From Arthrobacter sp. zg-Y1171 (lineage in GTDB: Bacteria > Actinomycetota > Actinomycetes > Actinomycetales > Micrococcaceae): 64,000 nucleotides of DNA. The stretch is from the NCBI RefSeq assembly GCF_025244845.1, contig NZ_CP104264.1:2542001-2606000 (forward strand). The letters are read 5' to 3'. Both the position numbers and the translations under genes were made by a program. A model generated the notes under the pieces. It was not told the DNA's origin. It was given only the letters and a program-made list of their open reading frames with translations, and searched no databases. The number at the start of each line of letters is the position of its first letter. The stretch's first letter is position 1. Shown here one piece after another: positions 1 to 11,855 of the stretch.

Positions 1-759
1 GTCGGCCATCTTGTCTCCTTTGGTCAAGGAGAATGCGGCCGCGATGGGAAAGGTCGTGCCGTCGACGGGTGCAGTTCCTTGAATCCGGTACCAGTAGCTT
101 GGTCCTGAGTCCCCATGCAGGCTGTCGATCTCGATGATATGTTCGTCTAGATCTCGACGTTCGAGCAATCGGACGTTGCCATCGAGGAAGGTGGTGGCAA
201 TGAGACGGATGTTGTCGAGGAACAGCAGGGTGGACCGGGAGATTTCGGTGAGTGCTTTACTTACCTCAACGATGGCTTGCGCTGCGTTCTTTCCCGGCCG
301 GTCGAAGGGAAACCAGAACGTCGTCCGGTCCGGATTGCGTGCGAACGGTTCGGTACGGGTGGGCACAAACAGGTCCTGGATAGCGAAGGCGTACTCACCG
401 GACTGGACCTGGGGCGTCTGCGTGTAAGCGAAAACCGCTTTGAACCCCACCCCGAACTTCCCAATGCTGGTGGCTTCATCGGCCTTGGTAGATTGACCGA
501 TTCCGGTGATTGATTCGATGTCTTGCAGATTGAAGATCCGGGAGCCGTCGTGTTCGACGAGGAGACCGTCGTTTCTCAACTCGAAGTTCACTTCTCGGGC
601 GTGAGCATCCTCTGCGTTCTGCAGGAGTTCGTAGATGAAATGTGCGTTGTCTGGGTACAGATCGGCGAGGAGCTTACGGAGACCCTCTTCGAACCCGTTG
701 CTTCGTGCGGCGTCTATGTAGGCCCGGCGGTTCGCGGTAAGGGTATCGAACATTGTCAT
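1..759 (-). CDS. GHKL (sacsin/Hsp90-like) ATPase, C-terminus beyond window
   Basis: An open frame reads from ATG at 759 to the left window edge without a stop, giving 253 visible residues of a longer protein. A GHKL ATPase fold is visible: N-box ELLQNAEDA at residues 44-52, a HDG motif at 70-72, the segment SITGIGQSTK around 83-92, and the glycine-rich GKFGVGFKAVF lid motif at 100-110. This is the arrangement of sacsin-type ATPase domains, which are common as N-terminal modules of large bacterial proteins in defence islands (family knowledge). The ATG overlaps the stop of the upstream helicase as ATGA, so the two are translationally coupled. The C-terminal effector, if any, cannot be seen. 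The ATPase fold is near certain; a defence role is inference. Confidence 0.85.
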   Translation of the reverse strand, partial: MTMFDTLTANRRAYIDAARSNGFEEGLRKLLADLYPDNAHFIYELLQNAEDAHAREVNFELRNDGLLVEHDGSRIFNLQDIESITGIGQSTKADEATSIGKFGVGFKAVFAYTQTPQVQSGEYAFAIQDLFVPTRTEPFARNPDRTTFWFPFDRPGKNAAQAIVEVSKALTEISRSTLLFLDNIRLIATTFLDGNVRLLERRDLDEHIIEIDSLHGDSGPSYWYRIQGTAPVDGTTFPIAAAFSLTKGDKMAD

Positions 760-3700
760 GGGGCTACTACTCTCAGCAGGATGCTGGCGACGTGGCGCGA
801 GGCGAGGTCTGCTCGGCTAGCAGCTTGCCGTTGAGCTGAAATGAGCCGGTCGAATGATGCTTCGGCGCTTGTCCGCTCGCCAGCTTTCATGACGATTATG
901 TCGGGGTGGGTTGCGGACTCGAGTTGGCGTTCGATAATGCTGAGCCGACGAGCTTTCTGGGATGAAAGGGCAACGGTGCGACGCTCGACTGCTGCTATGT
1001 GTTGGCTCTGGTGCTTTGCTCTCGCCTGCGTCCACACCGTTGCATGTCGCTCATCTAGTCGGGCGCTCTGCACCTCTTCAATGTGTTTGCCTCCACTTTC
1101 GGTGCAAGCAGCGAGAAGTGATGCTGCTCGTTCTTCGATTGCCTCGTCCTCGGCCACGAATCGGTATGTCAACGAATCTCGCACGCCGAACCTTGTCCAT
1201 GCGTATACAGCGACAGGGTAGTCGCCGGGTTCGACCTCCTTCGAAGTGACGACCGCGGAAACATGAACAGGATCAGACAGGTGAAACCGTCTAGCTGCCA
1301 GGAGTACAAGGGGGTGGCTAGGACTTAGGAGCTCGACGTTCCCCGCCTCTTCTGTAAGTTCCGGATCGGTAGTCATGCTCAGCACGATCCGGTCCCCGCG
1401 GAGCAGCCGCTTCAGGTGACGGGCATCGATGTTCTGGGCGTCGAGCTCGTCGATTATTCGAGCAGCAGCCTCCGCGTTGAGTGGTACTCGTGCGATGCGG
1501 CCTGGACGGAGTGCAATGGATCGGCCTGGCTGTACTGATTCGAAGTATCTGCGTACAACGGCGGAAATCTTGCGGGCGCTCAGCCATTCACTGGATGCTT
1601 CCGCTACGTTCTCTTCAAATGAGGAGCCGGTGTATCCCAGTAGGTCCGCTTGTTGATCTTCTAGCCGTTGCTCTTCCTCAATGCGTGCGATGTCGTTGTC
1701 CGCGAGTTGTCGGAGCGCAGCCTGTCGTTCGTGGGGCTCCATCTGAAGGTTGGTGGCGATGTTGACAATGGCGGCAGTGACGTCGCCGAGGATCTGCTCG
1801 CTTCCTCCGATCGCATGGTGAAAGACGCCGATGCGGGAGAGGCACCGATCGTAGATCTCCGCTTCGATGGTGCCGTGCGTCAGGATGTTGATGATAGCCA
1901 CAGCTTCGCTTCGCTGGCCCCGGCGGTCGATGCGCCCGATGCGCTGCTCGATACGCATCGGGTTCCAGGGGATGTCGTAATTAACCAGGGTGTCGCAGAA
2001 TTGGTAATCGAGGCCTTCGGTTCCTACCTCGGAACAGATCATGACGTCGATGGCCTGTGGATCTGAGCGGTCGAGCTTGAATCGGCGGCGAATAGCCCTG
2101 CGGTCGTCGTCGGGTACTCCGCCGTGCATGACTGCAACGCGCACTCCCCACATGCGACACCGGGTTTCGAGGTACCTGATGGTGTGCCGGAAAGTACTGA
2201 AGATCAGGACCTTGTTGTTGGCGTCCGCCGTCTTGCCGTCGATGATCTCTTTGAGCAGTTCGGCTTTCGGGTCAAGCTCGTCGTCGAGCCGCTGGGCCAT
2301 CTCTTGTATCGAGGACGCCTCTACCCGAAAGCCCTCAATCTGCTCGGGAGTGAAGGAAATGACCTCCTCCTCGCCGTCGACGTCCGTACCAGTCAGGCGG
2401 TTCTCGAAAAGGTCCGTGATCAGGGGCGCCAGTCCCGTTATGGAACTTGCTGCCTGCCGGTGAAGGGTAGACATCAAGAACTTGACCGAAATCCCTGGTG
2501 TCCGCAATGTTGCGATCTTCTCACCCAGCGCGAGTACAGCGTCATAGACAGCTTGTTGAGCATCGGTGAAATGGACCGTGGGGGATGACGGCTTTCGAGT
2601 TGTGAATTCGCCAATGTCACGCCGCCGGGTCCGGGTGACGATCTCAGAGAAGGTGTTAAGTGCCTCAACCGAGCGGATGACCCTGATGCGAGCTCGATCA
2701 TCGAAGGGCGCGTCGTTCAGTAGCTCACGCACCTCGTCCACGCGACGATCCAGCGCGAGTACATCTCGGCCCCATTCCGTCTGCAGCGCTTTCTGCAGGT
2801 GGCCTTTGACGTCAGCCTGCCAGTCATTCTCTGCGGTGCGTGCTGCTCGGGACGCGTTGAAGAGGTGCTCGTTGGGCTCGAGCATGACGCGGAAGTCATT
2901 CCAGTCGAGGACGAGGTCGTCTCGCAGGAGATTGACGATCGTGAAGAGGTCCTGGCTGTGGGTCTGGATAGGGGTCGCGGAGAGCATCACGACGGCTTCG
3001 GCGGCGTCGACAAAGCGTTGAACGCACTGATAAGCCTTCGTCTCACGGTTTCGGATGTGGTGTGCTTCATCGACAATTACGAGGTCGAAGCCCAACTCAC
3101 CGGCAAGGTCATTGAGGCTTGCTACCTTCGTCTTAGAACCAGTCCGCGTACCAGTCAGGAGTGTTTCATCGAGCAAGGAGAAGGGGAGAATCGCTTTTTG
3201 GTAGCGAACTGGCCAAGACCCGTCCCGGAGGGTTTCCTCGAGGCACCAGCGGAGCGTCTTGCTATCCAGATGAACAAAATCCTCGTCAAAACGCTTTAAC
3301 TCGTCTCGCCACTTATCGTCGACCACGAGCGGACGCGGACAGATCACGAGAACGGACTCAGCCCTCTTTCGTGCTTGAAGCTCCTTAATGATCAAACACG
3401 CTTCGATCGTCTTACCGACACCCACGTCATCGGCGATCAGGATGCGAGGGCGGTCTGACTGGACAAGTTTAAGGACCGGCCGGTACTGATACGGCTCGAA
3501 GTCGACTCGTCCTGCGTTCCGGGAATGAAGGTAGTCGCTGTTGGGATCAAGCAGCAGTAAAGCAGTCAGCGCCGCATGGAGCTCGCTCGCAGTTACCGAT
3601 GCAACTGAATCGTTCTTAGAAACCGTTTCAATCTGAGGGGCAAAATATTGGTGCGTCGCTCCGTCATGGAAGACTGAGTATCGAATCGCCCCACCCACCT

Positions 3701-3794
3701 GATCTGTTCCTAAAACCGCCCCACTGACCTCGGGACGGGCGATAAGACGAACGAGCGTACCGGGACCAATCGTTGATTTTTCGTCGACAGACAT
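756..3794 (-). CDS. SNF2-family (HepA/RapA-like) DEAH helicase/translocase
   Basis: A protein of 1012 residues with a complete SF2/SNF2 motor: Walker A DDVGVGKT at about 122-129, DEAH at 242-245, SATPIQ at 272-277, and the C-terminal lobe with STFRHT and the motif V/VI region ending RIGRIDRRGQ near 610-645. The N-terminal stretch after GTLVRL resembles the leader of RapA/HepA-like helicases. I chose ATG 3794 over ATG 3821 because an AGGAAG Shine-Dalgarno sequence lies 9 bases before it. It is the first gene of a two-gene operon with the GHKL ATPase. A remnant of a zinc-ribbon gene ends about 55 bases upstream. Likely role: DNA or nucleoprotein translocase of a defence-type system (inference). 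Confidence 0.87.
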   Translation of the reverse strand: MSVDEKSTIGPGTLVRLIARPEVSGAVLGTDQVGGAIRYSVFHDGATHQYFAPQIETVSKNDSVASVTASELHAALTALLLLDPNSDYLHSRNAGRVDFEPYQYRPVLKLVQSDRPRILIADDVGVGKTIEACLIIKELQARKRAESVLVICPRPLVVDDKWRDELKRFDEDFVHLDSKTLRWCLEETLRDGSWPVRYQKAILPFSLLDETLLTGTRTGSKTKVASLNDLAGELGFDLVIVDEAHHIRNRETKAYQCVQRFVDAAEAVVMLSATPIQTHSQDLFTIVNLLRDDLVLDWNDFRVMLEPNEHLFNASRAARTAENDWQADVKGHLQKALQTEWGRDVLALDRRVDEVRELLNDAPFDDRARIRVIRSVEALNTFSEIVTRTRRRDIGEFTTRKPSSPTVHFTDAQQAVYDAVLALGEKIATLRTPGISVKFLMSTLHRQAASSITGLAPLITDLFENRLTGTDVDGEEEVISFTPEQIEGFRVEASSIQEMAQRLDDELDPKAELLKEIIDGKTADANNKVLIFSTFRHTIRYLETRCRMWGVRVAVMHGGVPDDDRRAIRRRFKLDRSDPQAIDVMICSEVGTEGLDYQFCDTLVNYDIPWNPMRIEQRIGRIDRRGQRSEAVAIINILTHGTIEAEIYDRCLSRIGVFHHAIGGSEQILGDVTAAIVNIATNLQMEPHERQAALRQLADNDIARIEEEQRLEDQQADLLGYTGSSFEENVAEASSEWLSARKISAVVRRYFESVQPGRSIALRPGRIARVPLNAEAAARIIDELDAQNIDARHLKRLLRGDRIVLSMTTDPELTEEAGNVELLSPSHPLVLLAARRFHLSDPVHVSAVVTSKEVEPGDYPVAVYAWTRFGVRDSLTYRFVAEDEAIEERAASLLAACTESGGKHIEEVQSARLDERHATVWTQARAKHQSQHIAAVERRTVALSSQKARRLSIIERQLESATHPDIIVMKAGERTSAEASFDRLISAQRQAASRADLASRHVASILLRVVAP

Positions 3795-3849
3795 GACGCA
3801 ATTCTTCCTTCCATTAGGCATTTTCGAGACCAGTCCACCGGCGAAGTGG

Positions 3850-3968: not shown

Positions 3969-4481
3969 TTACAATCGCAATTCTGACTCGCCCAGCGTGC
4001 TACGCGACTGTTGGGCGCTGCCTCCACGGGAGTAGGGCGAGACCTGAACGACCTTTGTCTGTGTACCGTCAGGACCGAACTTCTGCAGACGCTGGTGCCC
4101 GTTGACCATATGTTCGTTGGGAGACTTTCTGCTCGGCTCCTCGCCGATGCCCTCGGAAGCCGGCAACGTAGACGCGGGGACTCGCTCCGCGCCCGCGGAG
4201 CTAAGCTGCTCGGTCCCTTCGTCCGGCCTCGATATCAAGAGCGTGACCCCAACAGCAGCCATAAGACCGACAACAGCAAGGCCTGGTTTGAAAGCTCTAT
4301 GCTCCTTGATCCGCTCCCACCGGCTCGGAATCTGGCTCATATCTTGTTCGCCCGTCTTCGCCTCATGCTTGCGCACACCAATGGACTCAGACTTTGCTGG
4401 TTTGTCCTTCGGCTGCCCAAGTGATGATGGCTCGAGCGGCCGATCCCCGTCGAACGGGTCTTCTTGATCGAGGTCAGGCAC
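3969..4481 (-). CDS. Single-pass membrane protein of unknown function
   Basis: A 170-residue protein with a GTG start at 4481. Residues 1-60 are charged and low complexity, one transmembrane helix (GLAVVGLMAAVGVTLLI) lies at about 68-84, and a polar tail of about 85 residues follows. The tail contains SRKSPNEHMVNGHQRLQ, matched by SRKSPVEHVINGYQRLP in the second cassette at 7892-8161, so the two are paralogues. It is not a family I recognise. The order (membrane protein then zinc-ribbon sequence) repeats in the second cassette, which suggests a functional unit. Confidence 0.65.
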   Translation of the reverse strand: MPDLDQEDPFDGDRPLEPSSLGQPKDKPAKSESIGVRKHEAKTGEQDMSQIPSRWERIKEHRAFKPGLAVVGLMAAVGVTLLISRPDEGTEQLSSAGAERVPASTLPASEGIGEEPSRKSPNEHMVNGHQRLQKFGPDGTQTKVVQVSPYSRGGSAQQSRSTLGESELRL

Positions 4482-4677
4482 TCGGTCACTCTATCCTTAT
4501 GTCGGTAATTCCGGTTGCACACACGACTGGGCGTGAGCACGAATCCGCCCTAAGCATTGATCCTGCATGCAGAAAACAATGCATCAGTGACCTCAAAGCA
4601 AGAGTTGCACATTTAGGACTCCGTGTCCCAGTCAGTCTCGTCTTCGACTTTTTCGTCACATGACGTGCAGGTGAGCG

Positions 4678-4878
4678 TCAAGACGGTCCTCCTTCGGAGC
4701 CTGGTTTTGGCCAGTCCCAACATACCGGGCTAGTGAATGGGGAACAATAAGAACTGTCGTGGCGTTCGGAATAGTCGGTCATGTTGGCGGTCGGCTTGCC
4801 ACAGTTCGGACAGGGCCAGTTGGGACCCTCACAGGTGCGACTGTTGTGGCCTTCAAATCCGCACGCAGCACAAGCCAT
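4678..4878 (-). CDS. Small Cys-rich zinc-finger-like protein
   Basis: A 66-residue protein beginning MACAACGFEGHNSRTC, with a second knuckle CPNCG and two further cysteines (SYC, PVC). Spacing of CxxC pairs fits one or two zinc-binding knuckles. A clear AAGGGGAG ribosome-binding site precedes ATG 4878 by 5 bases, supporting a real gene. The family is not recognised. It lies upstream of the one-TM protein in the same orientation and may be the first gene of that cassette. Confidence 0.65.
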   Translation of the reverse strand: MACAACGFEGHNSRTCEGPNWPCPNCGKPTANMTDYSERHDSSYCSPFTSPVCWDWPKPGSEGGPS

Positions 4879-5322
4879 TACAACTCCCCTTGACCATAAT
4901 TCAGCAGCAAGTCAACAAAGACACATTTAACCATACCGGCGTGCTATATAGCGGTGAGGCACGACGACCCGGAACCATCAAGCGGCGCATCCGCAAGCCT
5001 TATCTAGGGCCATTCGTTCAGGTATTGTATTGGAACTCGAACAGGGCTTAGCACGAGCCACCCACTAGAGCGACTTCAATTAATTTCGCGTCGGCATTTC
5101 CTTACAGTGAGTCCGATTGTTTGAACGTGTGCAGCATGTATCGGTTGCCTAACCCAAGTGGCTTAGGTGGTCGAAGTGCGTCACCACCCCACAATTGATC
5201 GGGTCGACGCTCGATTACGCATTCCGGCTATGCTGTCGTTGCACCCAGTACTATGCCCGCCTTGGGGAGGTGGCCTCCGTCGTCCGCACATGGTGGCTGA
5301 ATACCCACCGTTGGAGGCCCCG
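4879..5322. other. Intergenic region, AT-richer
   Basis: About 440 bases between the divergent 66-residue Cys-rich gene and the coiled-coil protein gene. It is visibly richer in A and T than the core genome. Promoters for both genes are expected here but I see no convincing paired hexamers. An alternative upstream start (5167, GTG) for the following gene lies in this region and is disfavoured because it has no ribosome-binding site. Confidence 0.5.
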
Positions 5323-7188
5323 TTGACCACCGCACCTGAGACAGCCGTCACCTACTCGACGGTCGATACGCCCCGTGACGCCATCGACCTGGCGGCATTC
5401 CTTTGCCACCCGGAGCGGGACCACCCGGTCGTGGTGATCTCCTCCACCAAGGACGGGCCACGGATTGATCCGGCCGCCGTCGCCGGGCGTCTCGGAAACA
5501 AGGCCACGGTCTACCTCCTGGCCACACCTGCGGTGGCTTACCCCTTCGATGAGGCCATGCCTGAGGAGACATCCGTCTACGGCGGCGCCGCCCGCTCCTA
5601 CCCGACCGGGAATGCATGGCACAGCAACCAGAGGATTTCCGTCCTCCGCCTGGCTTACGCGGACGCTGAAGCCCGCGACGCTGTCGACCTCCTCGCCCAA
5701 GACGTCGACAAGATGGACCCGTACGCGCCTCCGGTCACCACTTCAAGCACACCGGCCCGCTCGACGGTGCCCCAAGTTGTTGGGTGCGAGGTCTCCATGC
5801 TGCTGCCCCCGGACGGGGTGCTGGTGAAACTGGCTCACGGCATGGCCCGCATCGACACCGCCACCCTGGCGCCCGGAATCGAGCCGGAGCGCCTGTTCAC
5901 GCCTGGCCAGAAGCTGACCGGCACCGTCCAGAACGGGCTGCTCACCATCACCTCCGGCATCCATACCGTCGCCGAAGCCGTCGCCCACGCCCCCGCCGGC
6001 ACCATCCACCCGGCCTTGGTCCTGAACGAGAAGCGCATCGCCCTGTTCCCCGGCCTGGTCGTCCGCCACACCTCCCCACGAGAGCCGGGCAGTGTCATTG
6101 CCGTCCGCGTCGAGCTTTCCGGCCGTGCCGATGGCAAGGGCTGGAAGTTCTCCACCGCGGAGGACCCAGAACCGGAGTCAATCACACCGGCCCTGCCGTT
6201 CTACGTCGGCGACGAACCCTGGATCGTCTGGAGCCCTCGGGCCGCGCAGCCCGTGGAGATCGCTGAGTCCGATGAGCCCGCGGAACCGAAACCGGGTCCA
6301 GAAGGGGAAGAACACGCCCCAACTCAAGACAACGCGCCAGCCGCGGCCGACGATGGTGAGACGCCGCCTTCGTCGGCGCCCCCTGCTGCTGCGCACACCG
6401 ACGTCACCTCCGCCCTGGAATTGATCCGGACGACACTTCACGATCTCGACGAAACCAACCGCCGCCTTGAAGCCGAGGCCACCGCGTTGCGTCATACGGC
6501 CTCAAATCAAAAGTCGGCAGGCCCCGTGCCCTCGCCCGGGCCCGGCGGCGCCGCCCTGGACCAGGCCCAGCGGCAAGTTGCCCTGTTGACACGGGAGCGG
6601 ATCGAACTCGTCGGGGACCTCACCCGGGCACTCGGTGATGCGGACACCCTAGCCGCTGAGAACACCGCCTTGGCCCATGAGAACGAACGCCTGCGGGAAA
6701 GTGTCCGTACGGAGCAGACCCGTGCTGCCCGTGCCCGTCAGCTCTCCCGGGAAATCTCTGCTGGCGCAGACACCGGACCGCTGTTCGCCGACCCCGCCGA
6801 ACAGTTCCGCCACGATGTCTACCTAGAGTGGGCGACTCGGATCCCGGCCGCGTCCAAGGCCGAAACACCTCTTGCGGAATACGGCTTCACGGAAAAATTC
6901 CTCCAGACTGTCGACCGGATTCAGGGCGTCGACCGGTCCAAGATTGTCGCTGTCGTTGTGGAGGTTCTCACCGGCATCGCCGACACATCCGCCGGCCGCG
7001 ACATGCACCGGCTCCGCGGTGGGCCCAAGGCTGGAACCGGCTTCATCGAGGACGCAGAGTACGGCACCGCCTGGCGGGTTGCCCTGCAGGTCGCCACCGC
7101 ATCGGCCCGCCGGCTGCACTTCTGGCGCGGCACCGACGGCAAGGTCATGTTCGCCACCGTCGGTGTCCACGACGACATGGGCATCTGA
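5323..7188 (+). CDS. Modular coiled-coil protein of unknown function
   Basis: About 621 residues from TTG 5323, chosen because GGAGG lies exactly 5 bases before it and the resulting MTTAPETAV start is natural; the frame is open back to 5167. Order of parts (approximate): N-terminal alpha/beta region at 15-115 with the distinctive VYGGAARSYP at 85-94; a region resembling an OB/S1-like beta barrel at about 150-215; a Pro/Glu-rich linker at 310-360; a coiled coil at 360-480; and a compact C-terminal domain at 490-621 ending LHFWRGTDGKVMFATVGVHDD. That last segment faintly recalls RelE/ParE-type toxin ends, but I cannot assign it. The codon usage is high-GC actinobacterial, so it may have come from a related genome. 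Confidence 0.7.
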   Translation: MTTAPETAVTYSTVDTPRDAIDLAAFLCHPERDHPVVVISSTKDGPRIDPAAVAGRLGNKATVYLLATPAVAYPFDEAMPEETSVYGGAARSYPTGNAWHSNQRISVLRLAYADAEARDAVDLLAQDVDKMDPYAPPVTTSSTPARSTVPQVVGCEVSMLLPPDGVLVKLAHGMARIDTATLAPGIEPERLFTPGQKLTGTVQNGLLTITSGIHTVAEAVAHAPAGTIHPALVLNEKRIALFPGLVVRHTSPREPGSVIAVRVELSGRADGKGWKFSTAEDPEPESITPALPFYVGDEPWIVWSPRAAQPVEIAESDEPAEPKPGPEGEEHAPTQDNAPAAADDGETPPSSAPPAAAHTDVTSALELIRTTLHDLDETNRRLEAEATALRHTASNQKSAGPVPSPGPGGAALDQAQRQVALLTRERIELVGDLTRALGDADTLAAENTALAHENERLRESVRTEQTRAARARQLSREISAGADTGPLFADPAEQFRHDVYLEWATRIPAASKAETPLAEYGFTEKFLQTVDRIQGVDRSKIVAVVVEVLTGIADTSAGRDMHRLRGGPKAGTGFIEDAEYGTAWRVALQVATASARRLHFWRGTDGKVMFATVGVHDDMGI

Positions 7189-7501
7189 GCTGAACGGGCC
7201 CGTCGTCTCAAGGTTTTCCGACCAGCTCCCGGCAAGCATCTCTACTGCGGCATCGGCAACATTAATGGTGGCTGCAGGGCCTGCAGCACAGGACAACCCC
7301 GCATGCCGCGGCTGCAGACGCTCAAGGCCGTAGAAAAAGTCACATCCTGCAACCTGTACCGAGCCGTTCGCGAACTTATCTATTCCGCGTTCACCAACAC
7401 CGAGTGAGACCTTCATCGCGAGCCTTGTGGACTACGGCTGTTTTCCCGTGCCAAGGCCCGCCTGATTGCTGTACCGTCTGAACCCTCAGCCACCTGCGAC
7501 A
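7189..7501. other. Intergenic region between convergent genes
   Basis: About 310 bases between the coiled-coil protein and the zinc-ribbon gene that converges on it. No credible gene, long hairpin or repeat was seen here. Confidence 0.5.
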
Positions 7502-7798
7502 TTAGAGGGCCGCTTCGAGTTCCGTCCAGGAGTACCCGAACATGTAGTCCTCATCCTTACCGTTTGAGGCCCAGATCTGAGCAGCTTCGTAAACATTTAG
7601 CGTCTCGCTGTCGTCATCGTCATCGTCTAGGCCGTAGCGGCAGTCGAGGCAGTACATCTCGGAGTAGACAAATCTCTTCACCAAGGGAGTTCCACAATTA
7701 GGACATGGGGGCGTTTCACCCACGTAGACATTGATCTCGTCCCAGCTCTTTTCCTTCTTCGAAAGGAAATCAAATAAACCCAAAAGACCTACCCCCAT
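7502..7798 (-). CDS. Zinc-ribbon protein, intact copy
   Basis: A 98-residue protein from ATG 7798; an upstream GTG in frame at 7870 is possible. It has an N-terminal helix (LLGLFDFLSKKEKSWDEINVY), a four-cysteine zinc ribbon (CPNCG then CLDC) at about 32-56, an acidic run of six aspartates at about 60-65, and an aromatic C-terminus (MFGYSWTELEAAL). The function is unknown; such ribbons commonly bind zinc for protein or nucleic acid contacts. A truncated copy of its 5' end lies at 3850-3923. It is the last gene of the second paralogous cassette. Confidence 0.68.
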   Translation of the reverse strand: MGVGLLGLFDFLSKKEKSWDEINVYVGETPPCPNCGTPLVKRFVYSEMYCLDCRYGLDDDDDDSETLNVYEAAQIWASNGKDEDYMFGYSWTELEAAL

Positions 7799-7891
7799 TC
7801 GGCCCGCCGAAGCGGTCCTCTGGTTTGTGAGACCAACCGCTGACGACAAGCAAACCGCACTTCTAGACACAGCCAGTATGCCATGCGCCTG

Positions 7892-8101
7892 TTAGTCGCG
7901 GCCCCCTCGCAAGTAAGACGAGATTTCAACGATCTTAGCCTCGGTGCCGCCGGGACCGTCACGCGGCAATCGCTGGTACCCATTGATCACGTGCTCGACC
8001 GGAGACTTTCTGCTGGCCACCTCGGGAAGGGCATGAAATGCCGTCTCCGTATACTCCGGGACTTTCGCCAAGGCTACGGTGCTGACGCCCCCCAATGCCA
8101 C
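7892..8101 (-). CDS. Short paralogue of the one-TM protein, possibly degraded
   Basis: From GTG 8101 this encodes 69 residues including GVSTVALAKVPEY and SRKSPVEHVINGYQRLP, which aligns with the tail of the 3969-4481 protein (SRKSPNEHMVNGHQRLQ). The frame is open upstream to a stop at 8164-8162, and the codons there (YAGLTVALGG) continue a transmembrane helix that aligns with the other copy, but no start codon is available in that extension. Either a short protein is made from GTG, or the gene has lost its 5' part. It sits directly upstream of the intact zinc-ribbon gene. Confidence 0.5.
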   Translation of the reverse strand: MALGGVSTVALAKVPEYTETAFHALPEVASRKSPVEHVINGYQRLPRDGPGGTEAKIVEISSYLRGGRD

Positions 8102-8218
8102 AGTCAGGCCGGCGTAGGTGGTTTCTTCCTCGTATTCAGATGGATCAGCATGAAGGAAGACTCATGGGCCGTGGGTGCCATCTACGCAAAAGGAATACGT
8201 TCCAGAAACGATCGTCAC

Positions 8219-8608
8219 CTAGGGGACTAGCGGGCGCGCGTCCGAATCATCGCCGGATTCATCAACGATTTCAATATCCGCCACTAGCGCGGACAGAACC
8301 GATCGCACAGTTGCGACGATTTCCGATACGAGCGGATCGGCGACTGAGTGATGCTCACGGAGCGCATCAGCCAGCCTCTCCCCCACTTCATCTTCCGTGA
8401 GCAGCCACTTCGAAACCTCGGCGACCGTAACGTGCACGACATCGTACGCGACGCCGAGCGCGACTTTCCGAACGACCGGCTCGTACTCCGCCCGCCACTC
8501 AATTTCAGCGTGCTCCCGAGCTACCTCGATCTCCAACTTGCGGACCATGGCCTGCTTTTTGGCTTCGACGAGTCGCTGGACGGCCGCGTTCAAGTTAGAG
8601 TCCGTCAT
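8219..8608 (-). CDS. Hypothetical helical protein
   Basis: A 129-residue, largely helical and charged protein starting MTDSNLNAAVQRLVEAKKQ. A GAGGGGGG ribosome-binding site stands 6 bases before ATG 8608, which supports expression. There is no signal peptide, transmembrane segment or recognisable motif. It lies between the small Cys-rich gene (8681-8797) and the short membrane-protein paralogue, all on the minus strand, so it is probably part of that cassette. It has no counterpart in the first cassette. Confidence 0.6.
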   Translation of the reverse strand: MTDSNLNAAVQRLVEAKKQAMVRKLEIEVAREHAEIEWRAEYEPVVRKVALGVAYDVVHVTVAEVSKWLLTEDEVGERLADALREHHSVADPLVSEIVATVRSVLSALVADIEIVDESGDDSDARPLVP

Positions 8609-8680
8609 TCGAATTCCCCCCTCTTAGTGAATCCCAGAGCGATCACGCTCTCTGGGCTCTTAGCTTTGCACAGATGGCAC

Positions 8681-8797
8681 CTACGAGCACTTAATGTCAC
8701 AACTTGTACAGTGCCAGTTGTCCACTTTCTGGCACCAAGAAAAAGTAGTGGCTCCACAGCTAATGCATTCACCGTGGGGAGCATCTTCGAGGTCCAT
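8681..8797 (-). CDS. 38-residue zinc-ribbon miniprotein
   Basis: From ATG 8797 with a strong AAAGGAG site 6 bases upstream. The peptide has CISCG, a lone C in WCQK, then CTSC and a final C, i.e. two CxxC knuckles in 38 residues. The longer frame up to 8905 has no ribosome-binding site and an uncharacteristic N-terminus, so the short form is preferred. The function is unknown; size and motif fit a single zinc knuckle. Confidence 0.55.
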   Translation of the reverse strand: MDLEDAPHGECISCGATTFSWCQKVDNWHCTSCDIKCS

Positions 8798-9156
8798 TGG
8801 TTCTCCTTTCCGTACAGGAAGACAAGATTGCTTGAAGTCGATAACAAAAACCCGAGATCTGGTCACCACTGGTACGGTTGACCGCAAGGTAGGGGTCGCC
8901 CACACCGCGCCTTCAGAAGTTAGAGCACAAACCTAAACTCCACCACGTTCCTTAACCGGATAACGTCGACTGCGGAAGTCACTGGACAACGAGCTCAGGA
9001 TGCTGACTAGGGCTGCGAAGGAATGAAAAACTGACGATCCCACTCGCAGCATCACCGTCATTCACGGACGTCAGTGATAGCAAATCAGCAACCTGGCAGG
9101 GCAGAGACTCTACTGCCCGTAGCCTCGATCAAAAGAACGAATTATTGGGGGAAGAT
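8798..9156. other. Intergenic region with a ychF 3'-end repeat
   Basis: About 360 bases between divergent small genes. It contains one copy of the 18-base ychF-end repeat at 8929-8946. Otherwise I see no gene or strong hairpin. Promoters for both flanking genes should be here. Confidence 0.5.
8929..8946. repeat. ychF 3'-end direct repeat, copy 3 (att-like)
   Basis: AAACCTAAACTCCACCAC is identical over 18 bases to the genuine ychF 3' end at 10779-10796. The bases on its right (GTTCC) match copy 2 rather than genuine ychF. On the minus strand it reads RNVVEFRF. The left flank differs from both other copies, as expected for an attachment-site junction. Confidence 0.65.
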
Positions 9157-9513
9157 ATGACCGCATCACCGAATTGCAAGCCTTGGTGTGACGACCACCA
9201 AACCGATTCCGAGGATAACTCCTGCTGCACGCGTTTCGTTATCTACGATGACGGCAGGCAAGAGGCAACTCCACCCGCGATGGCGGAACGACTCGAGGCT
9301 CTAGGCGGAGGCGGACTTCCACCAGAAATCTCGTGGGTAGCCCTCAGCGCATCCCAGGACGAAGACGACGCGCAGCCTCTCCTGCGCTTCCAGTTCCACG
9401 ATGGGGGCGATGACCCGCAGGAGAGCGCGAACCTATACATGAATCTCGATGGCCTGAGAGCCTTCCACTCCAACCTCGGCGCCATGCTCAGGGGTTTGTC
9501 GCAACCGAGCTGA
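9157..9513 (+). CDS. DUF6907-like protein
   Basis: A 118-residue protein from ATG 9157, preceded by GGGGGA 5 bases upstream; a TTG at 9145 is the longer alternative. The N-terminal Cys/His/Trp pattern (NCKPWCDDHQ, then CCTRF) followed by a beta-rich region (LLRFQFHD) and a helical end (LDGLRAFHSNLGAML) resembles actinobacterial DUF6907 proteins, which are common in mobile or accessory regions and have no known activity. It is a lone plus-strand gene followed by a terminator at 9543-9583. Confidence 0.6.
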   Translation: MTASPNCKPWCDDHQTDSEDNSCCTRFVIYDDGRQEATPPAMAERLEALGGGGLPPEISWVALSASQDEDDAQPLLRFQFHDGGDDPQESANLYMNLDGLRAFHSNLGAMLRGLSQPS

Positions 9514-9542
9514 GTGGCGGCACGGATACCGGTTATTAAGAA

Positions 9543-9583
9543 TAAATGCCGCCCCCAGTGTTTTCTGGTGGGGACGGCATTTC
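9543..9583. terminator. Hairpin terminator duplicated from the ychF end
   Basis: An AAATGCCGYCCCCA arm and its complement enclose a short GTGTTTTC-type loop and end in ATTT, forming a roughly 14-bp stem with one mismatch. It terminates the DUF6907-like gene, and it closely resembles the terminator next to genuine ychF (10714-10752) in sequence and in distance to the ychF-end repeat. Confidence 0.7.
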
Positions 9584-9607
9584 TATTGATTCAGAAGAGA
9601 AATCTAT

Positions 9608-9631
9608 ACGTTAAACCTAAATTCCACCACG
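9608..9631 (-). repeat. ychF 3'-end direct repeat, copy 2 (att-like)
   Basis: The minus strand reads ...RNVVEFRFNV then TAG, the same C-terminus and stop codon as YchF (GDVVEFRFNV). The core AAACCTAAATTCCACCAC (9614-9631) differs from genuine ychF by one base. The similarity extends left through the flank and terminator (about 95 bases in all), so this looks like a displaced original ychF end. Confidence 0.7.
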
Positions 9632-9850
9632 TTCCGTAGCCAATCAACCTCTTACATTCGCAGTCAGATTACCTTCGAGGTAGGGGAAGCCGAGCGTTAC
9701 GTCCCGGTTGATCTGAGGAATGTCTCCGGCGGCGGCAGCATGGGCCGCTGACGGAACCCCGCTCCCGCGCCGGAGGTCCTGCCGCCGGCGCGCGGCACCG
9801 GACCCTGCCAGCGGCGCCGCCGTCCTTTGCCACCTGGGCGCTTCTTGGTA

Positions 9851-10462
9851 TCAGCGACTGGTTTGGAGTGCCTCAGTGTAGAGTTTCGGGTCGTTCCTGG
9901 TTTCAGCTGAGATGACAAGATGACTGCCGTTGAGACGCTGCGCAAAGTACCCCAAATAGGGCAGTACGATGATCGTCGTGAGCCCGTCCTGCCATGCCTT
10001 AACCAGCGCCGGAAGGCTATCTTGTTCGGACCGGGAAGGAAAGTTCGGCGTTGTCTGTTTATCCCACGTATTGAAGGCCACCAGATCTACCCCATCCTCG
10101 CCGTATTCGACGGGCCAGAACGGTGGCACAATCGGGTGGAGTTCCTGTCCAGGGCTCGAGAGTTTTTGCATCTCTTCCTGTGAGATCGGTTCGTTTTGAA
10201 CTGTGCTTACGTTGAACCAGTCCCAGCTGCGGTCCCATTGCTGCTTCCAGCGTTCATCCCATACCTCACGGCTTGCTGACGCCGGGATCTTCGATGCACC
10301 CGTCGCAGGCACAGGGCTGAGTTCCGGAATTTCGATGTCCTGGGCGATCATCCATGCCTGTCGGATAAAGAGAAGCATCTTCAGGTTCTGCGCGTGGTCA
10401 TCAATCCGGATGGTCATTTCCTTTGGCCAAACAGCCCGCCGTCTAAGCCCCATTCCCCACAT
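9851..10462 (-). CDS. Hypothetical protein between two ychF-end repeats
   Basis: A 203-residue protein with an AAGGAG site 5 bases before ATG 10462. It is rich in tryptophan (WDERWKQQWDRSWDWF near 67-82) and aromatic residues and has no signal peptide or clear transmembrane helix. The family is not recognised. It is the only gene of the roughly 1.15-kb segment bounded by ychF-end repeats, so it was probably brought in by a small insertion. Confidence 0.65.
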   Translation of the reverse strand: MWGMGLRRRAVWPKEMTIRIDDHAQNLKMLLFIRQAWMIAQDIEIPELSPVPATGASKIPASASREVWDERWKQQWDRSWDWFNVSTVQNEPISQEEMQKLSSPGQELHPIVPPFWPVEYGEDGVDLVAFNTWDKQTTPNFPSRSEQDSLPALVKAWQDGLTTIIVLPYLGYFAQRLNGSHLVISAETRNDPKLYTEALQTSR

Positions 10463-10769: not shown

Positions 10770-11855
10770 CTATACATTAAACCTAAACTCCACCACATCG
10801 CCGTCGGCCATAACGTAGTCCTTGCCTTCGATGCGGACCTTGCCGCGGGATTTGGCCTCGGCCATGGAGCCGGCGTCGACCAGATCGTCGAAGGAGACAA
10901 CTTCGGCCTTGATGAAGCCGCGCTGGAAGTCGGAGTGGATGACGCCGGCAGCCTGCGGGGCAGTGTCGCCCTTGCGGATGGTCCAGGCGCGGGTTTCCTT
11001 GGGGCCGGCAGTCAGGTAGGTCTGCAGGCCGAGGGTGTGGAAGCCGACGCGTGCCAGCTGGTCCAGGCCGGATTCTTCCTGACCGTTCATTTCCAGCATT
11101 TCCCGGGCTTCTTCTTCGTCCAGCTCCACCAGGTCGGCTTCGAGCTTGGCGTCGAGGAAGATCGCGTCCGCCGGTGCCACCAGCTCGCGCAGCTCGGCCT
11201 GGCGCTCCGGGTTGCCCAGCACGGCGTCGTCCACGTTGAACACGTAGATGAACGGCTTGGCGGTGAGCAGGCTCAGCTCGCGCAGGTGCTCCATGTCCAG
11301 CTTGTCGCTGGCCACGGAAGAGAAGATCGTGTCGCCGCGTTCCAGGACGGTGCGGGCGGCCTCCATGGCGGCCAGCTGCGCGGCGTCGCGCTTCTTGATC
11401 TTGACTTCCTTCTCCACCCGCGGGATCGCCTTTTCCAGCGTCTGCAGGTCAGCCAGGATCAGCTCGGTGTTGATGGTTTCCATGTCCGACCGCGGATCCA
11501 CCTTGCCGTCCACGTGGATGACGTCGGGGTCATCGAACACGCGGATAACCTGGGCAATGGCTTCGGCTTCACGGATGTTGGCGAGGAACTGGTTGCCCAG
11601 GCCTTCACCCTCGGAAGCGCCCTTGACGATCCCGGCAATGTCCACGAAGGACACCGTTGCAGGGAGGATGCGCGCCGAACCGTGGATTTCGGCCAGCTTG
11701 GCCAGCCGCGGATCGGGAAGGGACACGACGCCGACGTTCGGTTCGATGGTGGCGAACGGATAGTTCGCCGCCAGCACGTTGTTGCGGGTCAGCGCATTGA
11801 ACAGGGTTGATTTGCCGACGTTGGGCAGGCCGACGATGCCAATAGTAAGAGCCAC
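10770..11855 (-). CDS. ychF: Redox-regulated ribosome-binding ATPase YchF/OBG family
   Basis: 361 residues, the usual length. It is a TRAFAC P-loop protein with GLPNVGKST at 9-17, a switch region, and NVDD in place of the canonical NKxD G4 motif, consistent with the ATP preference of this family. A coiled-coil insert and a C-terminal TGS domain ending DGDVVEFRFNV follow. YchF binds ribosomes and modulates stress and translation. The 3' end (10779-10796) is repeated twice to the left, so it appears to be the insertion target of the island. ispH lies just upstream on the same strand. Confidence 0.96.
   Translation of the reverse strand: MALTIGIVGLPNVGKSTLFNALTRNNVLAANYPFATIEPNVGVVSLPDPRLAKLAEIHGSARILPATVSFVDIAGIVKGASEGEGLGNQFLANIREAEAIAQVIRVFDDPDVIHVDGKVDPRSDMETINTELILADLQTLEKAIPRVEKEVKIKKRDAAQLAAMEAARTVLERGDTIFSSVASDKLDMEHLRELSLLTAKPFIYVFNVDDAVLGNPERQAELRELVAPADAIFLDAKLEADLVELDEEEAREMLEMNGQEESGLDQLARVGFHTLGLQTYLTAGPKETRAWTIRKGDTAPQAAGVIHSDFQRGFIKAEVVSFDDLVDAGSMAEAKSRGKVRIEGKDYVMADGDVVEFRFNV
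10779..10796. repeat. ychF 3'-end direct repeat, copy 1 (genuine gene end)
   Basis: AAACCTAAACTCCACCAC within the last codons of ychF, matching copies at 9614-9631 (one mismatch) and 8929-8946 (identical). This is the putative attachment core. Confidence 0.65.

Follow-up and report, generated by a model that had tools for sequence, protein, structure and literature searches.

Introduction

What is known of bacterial loci that combine a GHKL ATPase with a Swi2/Snf2 helicase? In the available part of Iyer et al. (2008, PMC2292703), operons of this composition are predicted in restriction-modification (R-M)-like systems, together with nucleases and methylases. The accessible text of Anantharaman et al. 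(2013, PMC3710099) lists one fusion of a HEPN domain to a SWI2/SNF2 protein, WQE_15321. BrxHII and RapA share the order Tudor, Swi2/Snf2, C-terminal alpha-beta (excerpted text of PMC12839542), and VcSduA, a Shedu protein with a GHKL domain, is presented as a GHKL-gated defence nuclease (excerpted text of PMC12137116). Here we describe a helicase-ATPase gene pair at the left end of a 64,000-nucleotide stretch of Arthrobacter sp. zg-Y1171 (contig NZ_CP104264.1, positions 2,542,001 to 2,606,000; hereafter the window). The helicase and the ATPase form a two-gene module, a good candidate for a defence system.

The domain types that make up the pair are known, but we found no name for their combination. 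A literature search returned no paper on the pair and no function for it, subscription papers and most preprints lying outside its coverage; names in preprints or databases may exist. The accessible portions of PMC12458937, PMC10853773, PMC10952713, PMC8011034, PMC8195603, PMC10482375 and PMC13092281 make no mention of the pair.

Results

The helicase-ATPase pair

A preliminary description of this DNA had reported two minus-strand open reading frames (ORFs), their motifs and an ATGA overlap, all of which were confirmed in the sequence:

Window 756..3821, minus strand: RapA-like Swi2/Snf2 helicase, 1,021 amino acids (ORF, profile and fold)
Window 3408..3431, minus strand: helicase Walker A, DDVGVGKT, residues 131-138 (alignment)
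Window 3060..3071, minus strand: helicase DEAH box, residues 251-254 (62/62 aligned helicases)
Window 1923..1946, minus strand: helicase motif VI, QRIGRIDR, residues 626-633 (alignment)
Window 756..759, minus strand: ATGA overlap of helicase stop and ATPase start
Window 1..759, minus strand: sacsin-type GHKL ATPase, first 253 amino acids (ORF and profile)
Window 607..630, minus strand: ATPase GHKL N-box, ELLQNAED, residues 44-51 (alignment)
Window 439..462, minus strand: ATPase GHKL G2 box, GKFGVGFK, residues 100-107 (alignment)

The helicase ORF opens at 3821. The start given earlier, 3794, lies 27 bases inside it at an in-frame ATG; it would yield 1,012 amino acids and is equally plausible. 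Because the window lies within one continuous contig of 3,421,827 bases, the ATPase could be completed from the left-hand DNA (L002); the whole protein has 1,097 amino acids and occupies window -2534 to 759 (L002:11466-14759).

Are the two genes found together elsewhere? An ATPase locus scan of species genomes kept the best 80 of at least 222 loci; these 80 span 17 named phyla, with one locus unassigned. The window's own locus and a same-genus locus (L084) complete a set of 82. Two loci (L062, L079) begin at the ATPase, so that the helicase cannot be judged there, and 80 are informative. A homologous helicase stands immediately upstream of the ATPase in 77 of these 80, among the best-scoring loci listed: in 70 the matching helicase is on the same strand at a spacing of -98 to +36 bases, most commonly -4, and in seven more (L007, L008, L016, L028, L047, L063, L082) it is adjacent by tblastn or 132-577 bases away by ORF. 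In one exception, L078, the ATPase is preceded by a fragment of a helicase and by two small ORFs; the other two exceptions are taken up below. The view that the two genes belong together is thus borne out by co-occurrence across genomes, the check that the preliminary description had proposed. A third gene, for which it had suggested looking to the left, does not recur: no cluster of neighbouring ORFs appears in more than 4 of the 82 loci, many of whose contigs end nearby. One protein cluster adjoins the ATPase in L041 (cut), L053 and L067. Its members in the last two loci have 1,247 amino acids; the L053 member is encoded on the other strand, and the L067 member contains superfamily 1 (SF1) helicase domains.

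Helicase and ATPase protein distances correlate across 50 loci (r 0.71, against a maximum of 0.25 in 1,000 shuffles), shared ancestry not having been removed. The ATPase has 2,443 database homologues, mostly of equal length among the 120 matches listed. Starting instead from the helicase, a search of the window's phylum found 5 of 396 genomes at E 1e-80. Two of the five exceed 1,300 bits, the window genome (G000) and G171, whose contig stops within the helicase and leaves the partner out of view; the other three helicases (325-574 bits) showed no ATPase match in the fetched 11-14 kb. In Phycicoccus elongatus Lp2 (L029, 6370-22241), two copies of the pair with equal scores lie 9 kb apart, by duplication or as an assembly effect.

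The helicase

The helicase runs from a Tudor/SH3-like start through a Swi2/Snf2 core to RapA-type C-terminal domains, with no HEPN domain, and its predicted model matches the RapA fold over nearly the full length. Motif VI is exact in 60 of the 62 aligned helicases (61 of 64 from the loci, plus the window's). RapA membership was not adopted: architecture and fold fit, but the score against the NCBIfam RapA model PRK04914, 171.2 bits, falls below the cut-off of 576. The best PADLOC match is a DrmD model (398 bits, residues 20-907), and the NCBIfam DrmD model gives 315.7 bits, below its cut-off of 610. Six DrmDs above that cut-off, from 6 of 148 genomes, form their own clade at the tip of a long branch; in the tree that includes them, 59 of the 62 paired helicases fall into one group (support 93; inner 58 at 96). 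The helicases of L060, L065 and L073 cluster with two unpaired helicases on long branches, a placement that carries a long-branch warning, and the paired helicases therefore cannot be taken as a single clade.

A Pfam scan of the six other cassette ORFs (window 3969-10462) found no DrmA, DrmB, DrmC or methylase, in agreement with the earlier statement that DISARM partner genes are absent; on the left side of the pair, ORFs were inspected by eye and one was scanned with Pfam. We rejected DISARM membership on the missed DrmD cut-off, the separate clade and the partner genes not found among the ORFs scanned.

The ATPase

The ATPase is a sacsin/Hsp90-type GHKL module. It lies above the cut-offs for SACS (PF25794; 66.6 bits vs 32.8) and NF047352 (94.6 bits vs 50), and its predicted model aligns to GyrB, Hsp90, MutL and Morc3 over residues 16-446, the GHKL plus S5 module. 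Residues E44, N48, D51, G100, G103, G105 and K107 are invariant in all 73 aligned ATPases. For residues ~450 to 930, a segment not folded alone, structural aligners gave no solved fold. The match to TmtA, a name that we take to stand for Tiamat, reaches 166 bits over residues 25-334 of 1,097, the GHKL region, and in a relative (L030) extends over residues 4-681 at 184 bits. Tiamat membership was not adopted; on the TmtA models, the match of the window's ATPase is confined to the initial portion.

The preliminary description had expected the part of the ATPase beyond the window to carry or gate an effector. The completed C-terminus matches the EcoKMcrA HNH domain profile (E 8.4e-6). Its zinc cysteines are kept (C975 in 73/73, C978 in 72/73 and C1013 in 72/73, with C or H as fourth ligand in 70/73); the paired histidines and the CPNCH histidine, presumably the catalytic residues of HNH, are replaced in the window's ATPase. 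The C-terminus deviates in three divergent relatives (L060, L065, L073), of which L060 and L073 retain CH in their last knuckle and lack the paired histidines. Its residues mark the C-terminus as a zinc fold of the McrA-like HNH kind in which the catalytic histidines are missing, and for that reason the ATPase appears to lack the effector once expected of it. A nuclease at this position was rejected, the zinc ligands being conserved and the HNH histidines not.

A HEPN domain on most partner helicases

Where, then, might an effector reside? Among the aligned helicases, 43 of 62 carry an N-terminal Swt1-type HEPN RNase domain, this class being defined by an extension of at least 150 residues ahead of the Tudor-like start. 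Pfam HEPN_Swt1 scored above cut-off in 4 of 7 scanned helicases, all three misses being extension-less, and 40 of the 43 extended helicases retain both R and H of the RNxxxH motif. The window's helicase has 20 residues ahead of the Tudor start and lies within a HEPN-less actinobacterial clade of six (support 100). None of the 19 HEPN-less loci, the window and L002 included, has a separate HEPN ORF. On a quick tree the trait changes at least 10 times, six of the changes being forced by well supported branches. Members of the HEPN-less branch conserve the motifs of both proteins, and their genes overlap by ATGA in the window and in L003-L006. The effector, where present, appears to sit on the helicase, and the window's copy appears to have none.

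The window genome encodes one HEPN_Swt1 protein 1.87 Mb away (L143:4868-8169; G000:C1, about 672.9-676.2 kb), beside an ORF that is GHKL-like by eye, with methylase-like ORFs near; because of this match, a HEPN partner acting in trans is possible.

Location in a cassette array

That the pair sits in an accessory island, as described earlier, is supported by the interval between a TetR gene and ychF, which measures 13.55 kb in the window genome vs 1.24 kb in a same-species genome (G470), and by low GC. By alignment the extra DNA is L124 3337-15603, or window -2663 to 9603. GC is 57.7% in the helicase gene and 59.1% in the cassette vs 64.3-65.9% in the flanks and 67.1% in window 13000-64000; two kilobases within the cassette reach 67%. 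Within this otherwise low-GC unit, a 673-amino-acid ORF (window 5167-7188) has 67% GC and matched no Pfam family at its cut-off. The ychF 3' end occurs in four copies of the same orientation, and the pair lies in an 11.6-kb unit between two of them:

L124:3292-3314, window -2708 to -2686: ychF-3'-end-like repeat, left border of the 11.6-kb cassette
Window 8924..8946, minus strand: ychF-3'-end-like repeat, right border of the 11.6-kb cassette
Window 9608..9630, minus strand: ychF-3'-end-like repeat, border between two small neighbouring cassettes
Window 10774..10796, minus strand: the same motif at the true ychF 3' end, the probable integration site

Such repeats bound cassette units of 0.7 to 11.6 kb; within the genus, 7 of 8 other TetR-ychF intervals contain them, against none in a 51 kb control. 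A 203-amino-acid gene (window 9851-10462) lies in a unit of 1,166 bp, as it does in another species (L139:3877-5043), and the unit of a 122-amino-acid gene (window 9145-9513) recurs at L134:2352-3118. Intervals of other genus members (L131-L142) reach 41 kb; their 61 scanned ORFs include two Resolvase and two Recombinase matches (large serine recombinase domains), two N6_Mtase and one GmrSD_N. The recombinase domains raise the possibility that the TetR-ychF site is a hotspot for serine recombinases; the window's cassettes showed no recombinase. The full-length ATPase is present in 2 of 28 same-genus genomes, and seven further genomes of 59 searched gave only weak N-terminal ATPase matches.

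Genes near the pair

Pfam entries near the pair include R-M, integrase and AAA_15 families; ResIII and AAA_21 occur in neighbours and controls alike. L100, the copy from the same genus, carries HEPN; around it lie a PLD/DUF3427 helicase, a NERD-SF1 helicase and a type I R subunit. An Mrr nuclease precedes the pair in L067. In L034, AIPR, Mod and Res genes lie ahead of a HEPN-SNF2/ATPase pair, and in L027 (and L043 by clustering) Mod, Res and an HTH_17-SNF2 protein accompany the ATPase; these three loci are possibly composites with type III restriction.

Discussion

How might the pair work? We lean, by a narrow margin, towards a two-gene anti-invader module made of a RapA-like translocase and an ATP-driven clamp, whose output in the majority of the relatives sampled would be HEPN. 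Three observations favour a role in defence: most of the partner helicases sampled have the HEPN domain, R-M genes accompany a few of the loci, and defence genes surround the same-genus copy. We propose that the Swi2/Snf2 protein attaches to double-stranded DNA and moves along it, possibly at transcription sites, as its RapA-like architecture suggests. The GHKL ATPase would interact physically with it and, like Hsp90, MutL and gyrase B, dimerise and close as a clamp upon ATP binding, its C-terminal zinc fold holding DNA or a partner instead of cutting. Closure on foreign or abnormally transcribed DNA would be the sensing step that turns the output on. In most sampled relatives that output would be RNA cleavage by the helicase's HEPN RNase, leading to abortive infection. 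The window's branch has no HEPN, and there the output would be physical blocking of DNA by clamp and motor, possibly nuclease-free, or an effector encoded elsewhere.

Several observations weigh against a defence module of this kind. HEPN cannot be the general output, since 19 of the 62 helicases, the window's and 18 others, lack it. L027 and L043 associate the ATPase with a different SNF2 protein and with type III Mod and Res genes. Gene neighbourhoods give the defence role weak support: at E 1e-15, 144 neighbour ORFs (of 226 candidates, 20 loci) matched 131 PADLOC families and 136 control ORFs (of 268, same 20 genomes) matched 11, but this contrast counts families and not proteins, no family was matched by more than two proteins, and the type III methyltransferases of two loci supply most of the PADLOC rows shown. 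The pair was found in none of 72,556 plasmid records, and among 50,697 phage records the sole match is N-terminal at 33%; a plasmid or phage home was accordingly rejected. Finally, RapA is a housekeeping factor, which keeps a transcription role possible for the pair.

A bolder form of the anti-invader proposal, to which we give limited credence, is that the HEPN-less pair confers nuclease-free immunity: a RapA-like motor would load and move an ATP-closed GHKL clamp that traps and silences invading DNA, as a bacterial counterpart of eukaryotic MORC clamps with SNF2 remodellers, and the HEPN RNase would be a second, suicidal output added in many relatives.

Of the alternatives, the best placed, though improbable, is that the pair loops and tracks DNA on behalf of R-M enzymes, a role that has been proposed for MORC/paraMORC ATPases and their SF2 helicases. 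The type III Mod and Res genes next to the pair or the ATPase (L027, L034, L043), the Mrr nuclease of L067, the type I R gene near the same-genus copy and the operons predicted by Iyer et al. all fit it; methylase or nuclease clusters, however, occur in at most 3 of 82 loci, and Pfam found no methylase or nuclease in the six other ORFs of the window's region. Poorer still are the prospects of the window's copy being the degenerate remnant of a HEPN-type abortive system. HEPN in 43 of the 62 aligned helicases and its gain or loss at least six times on the starred branches of the tree (10 changes being the fewest) agree with such a history, but decay is expected to break genes, and the intact motifs, clade support and ATGA overlaps of the HEPN-less branch speak against it. 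Similarly doubtful is a role outside defence, in which a RapA-like factor recycles stalled RNA polymerase with an Hsp90-like chaperone: the near full-length RapA fold match suits it, but sporadic presence in the genus, the cassette location, the HEPN fusion, the R-M neighbours in a few loci and a score below the RapA cut-off do not.

Its retention across 17 named phyla, with no function for it in the literature searched, makes the pair a compact, testable candidate immune system. Since one genus contains both HEPN-bearing and HEPN-less forms, it can be tested directly whether motor and clamp are protective in the absence of a nuclease; a positive outcome would link bacterial immunity to clamp-type DNA silencing.

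How does the pair compare with described systems? It resembles the MORC/paraMORC operons in the available part of PMC2292703, where a GHKL-S5 ATPase stands beside a SWI2/SNF2 helicase on laterally mobile DNA; those loci usually contain nucleases or methylases, whereas the window's pair consists of two genes only, and its ATPase belongs to the sacsin family and has a distinct C-terminal part of 650 residues. DISARM provides the nearest helicase profile, DrmD being the best match in both PADLOC and NCBIfam, but six true DrmDs have no HEPN or ATPase match in their 6-kb pieces. In the accessible text of PMC3710099, WQE_15321 joins a Swt1-group HEPN to SWI2/SNF2 and is probably equivalent to the 43 HEPN-bearing partner helicases; no ATPase partner is named there, and the window's helicase is without HEPN. 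The TmtA models of Tiamat have 1,063-1,782 residues, of which the window's ATPase fits the first part, and the window's ATPase has a helicase partner. BrxHII of BREX shares the helicase's Tudor-Swi2/Snf2-alpha-beta order (excerpted text of PMC12839542), while no BREX genes were seen among the cassette ORFs scanned and the helicase stays below the RapA cut-off. Lastly, in VcSduA a GHKL ATPase is likewise proposed to gate a defence effector, as described in the excerpted text of PMC12137116; there the nuclease is fused to the ATPase, whereas the window's ATPase carries none.

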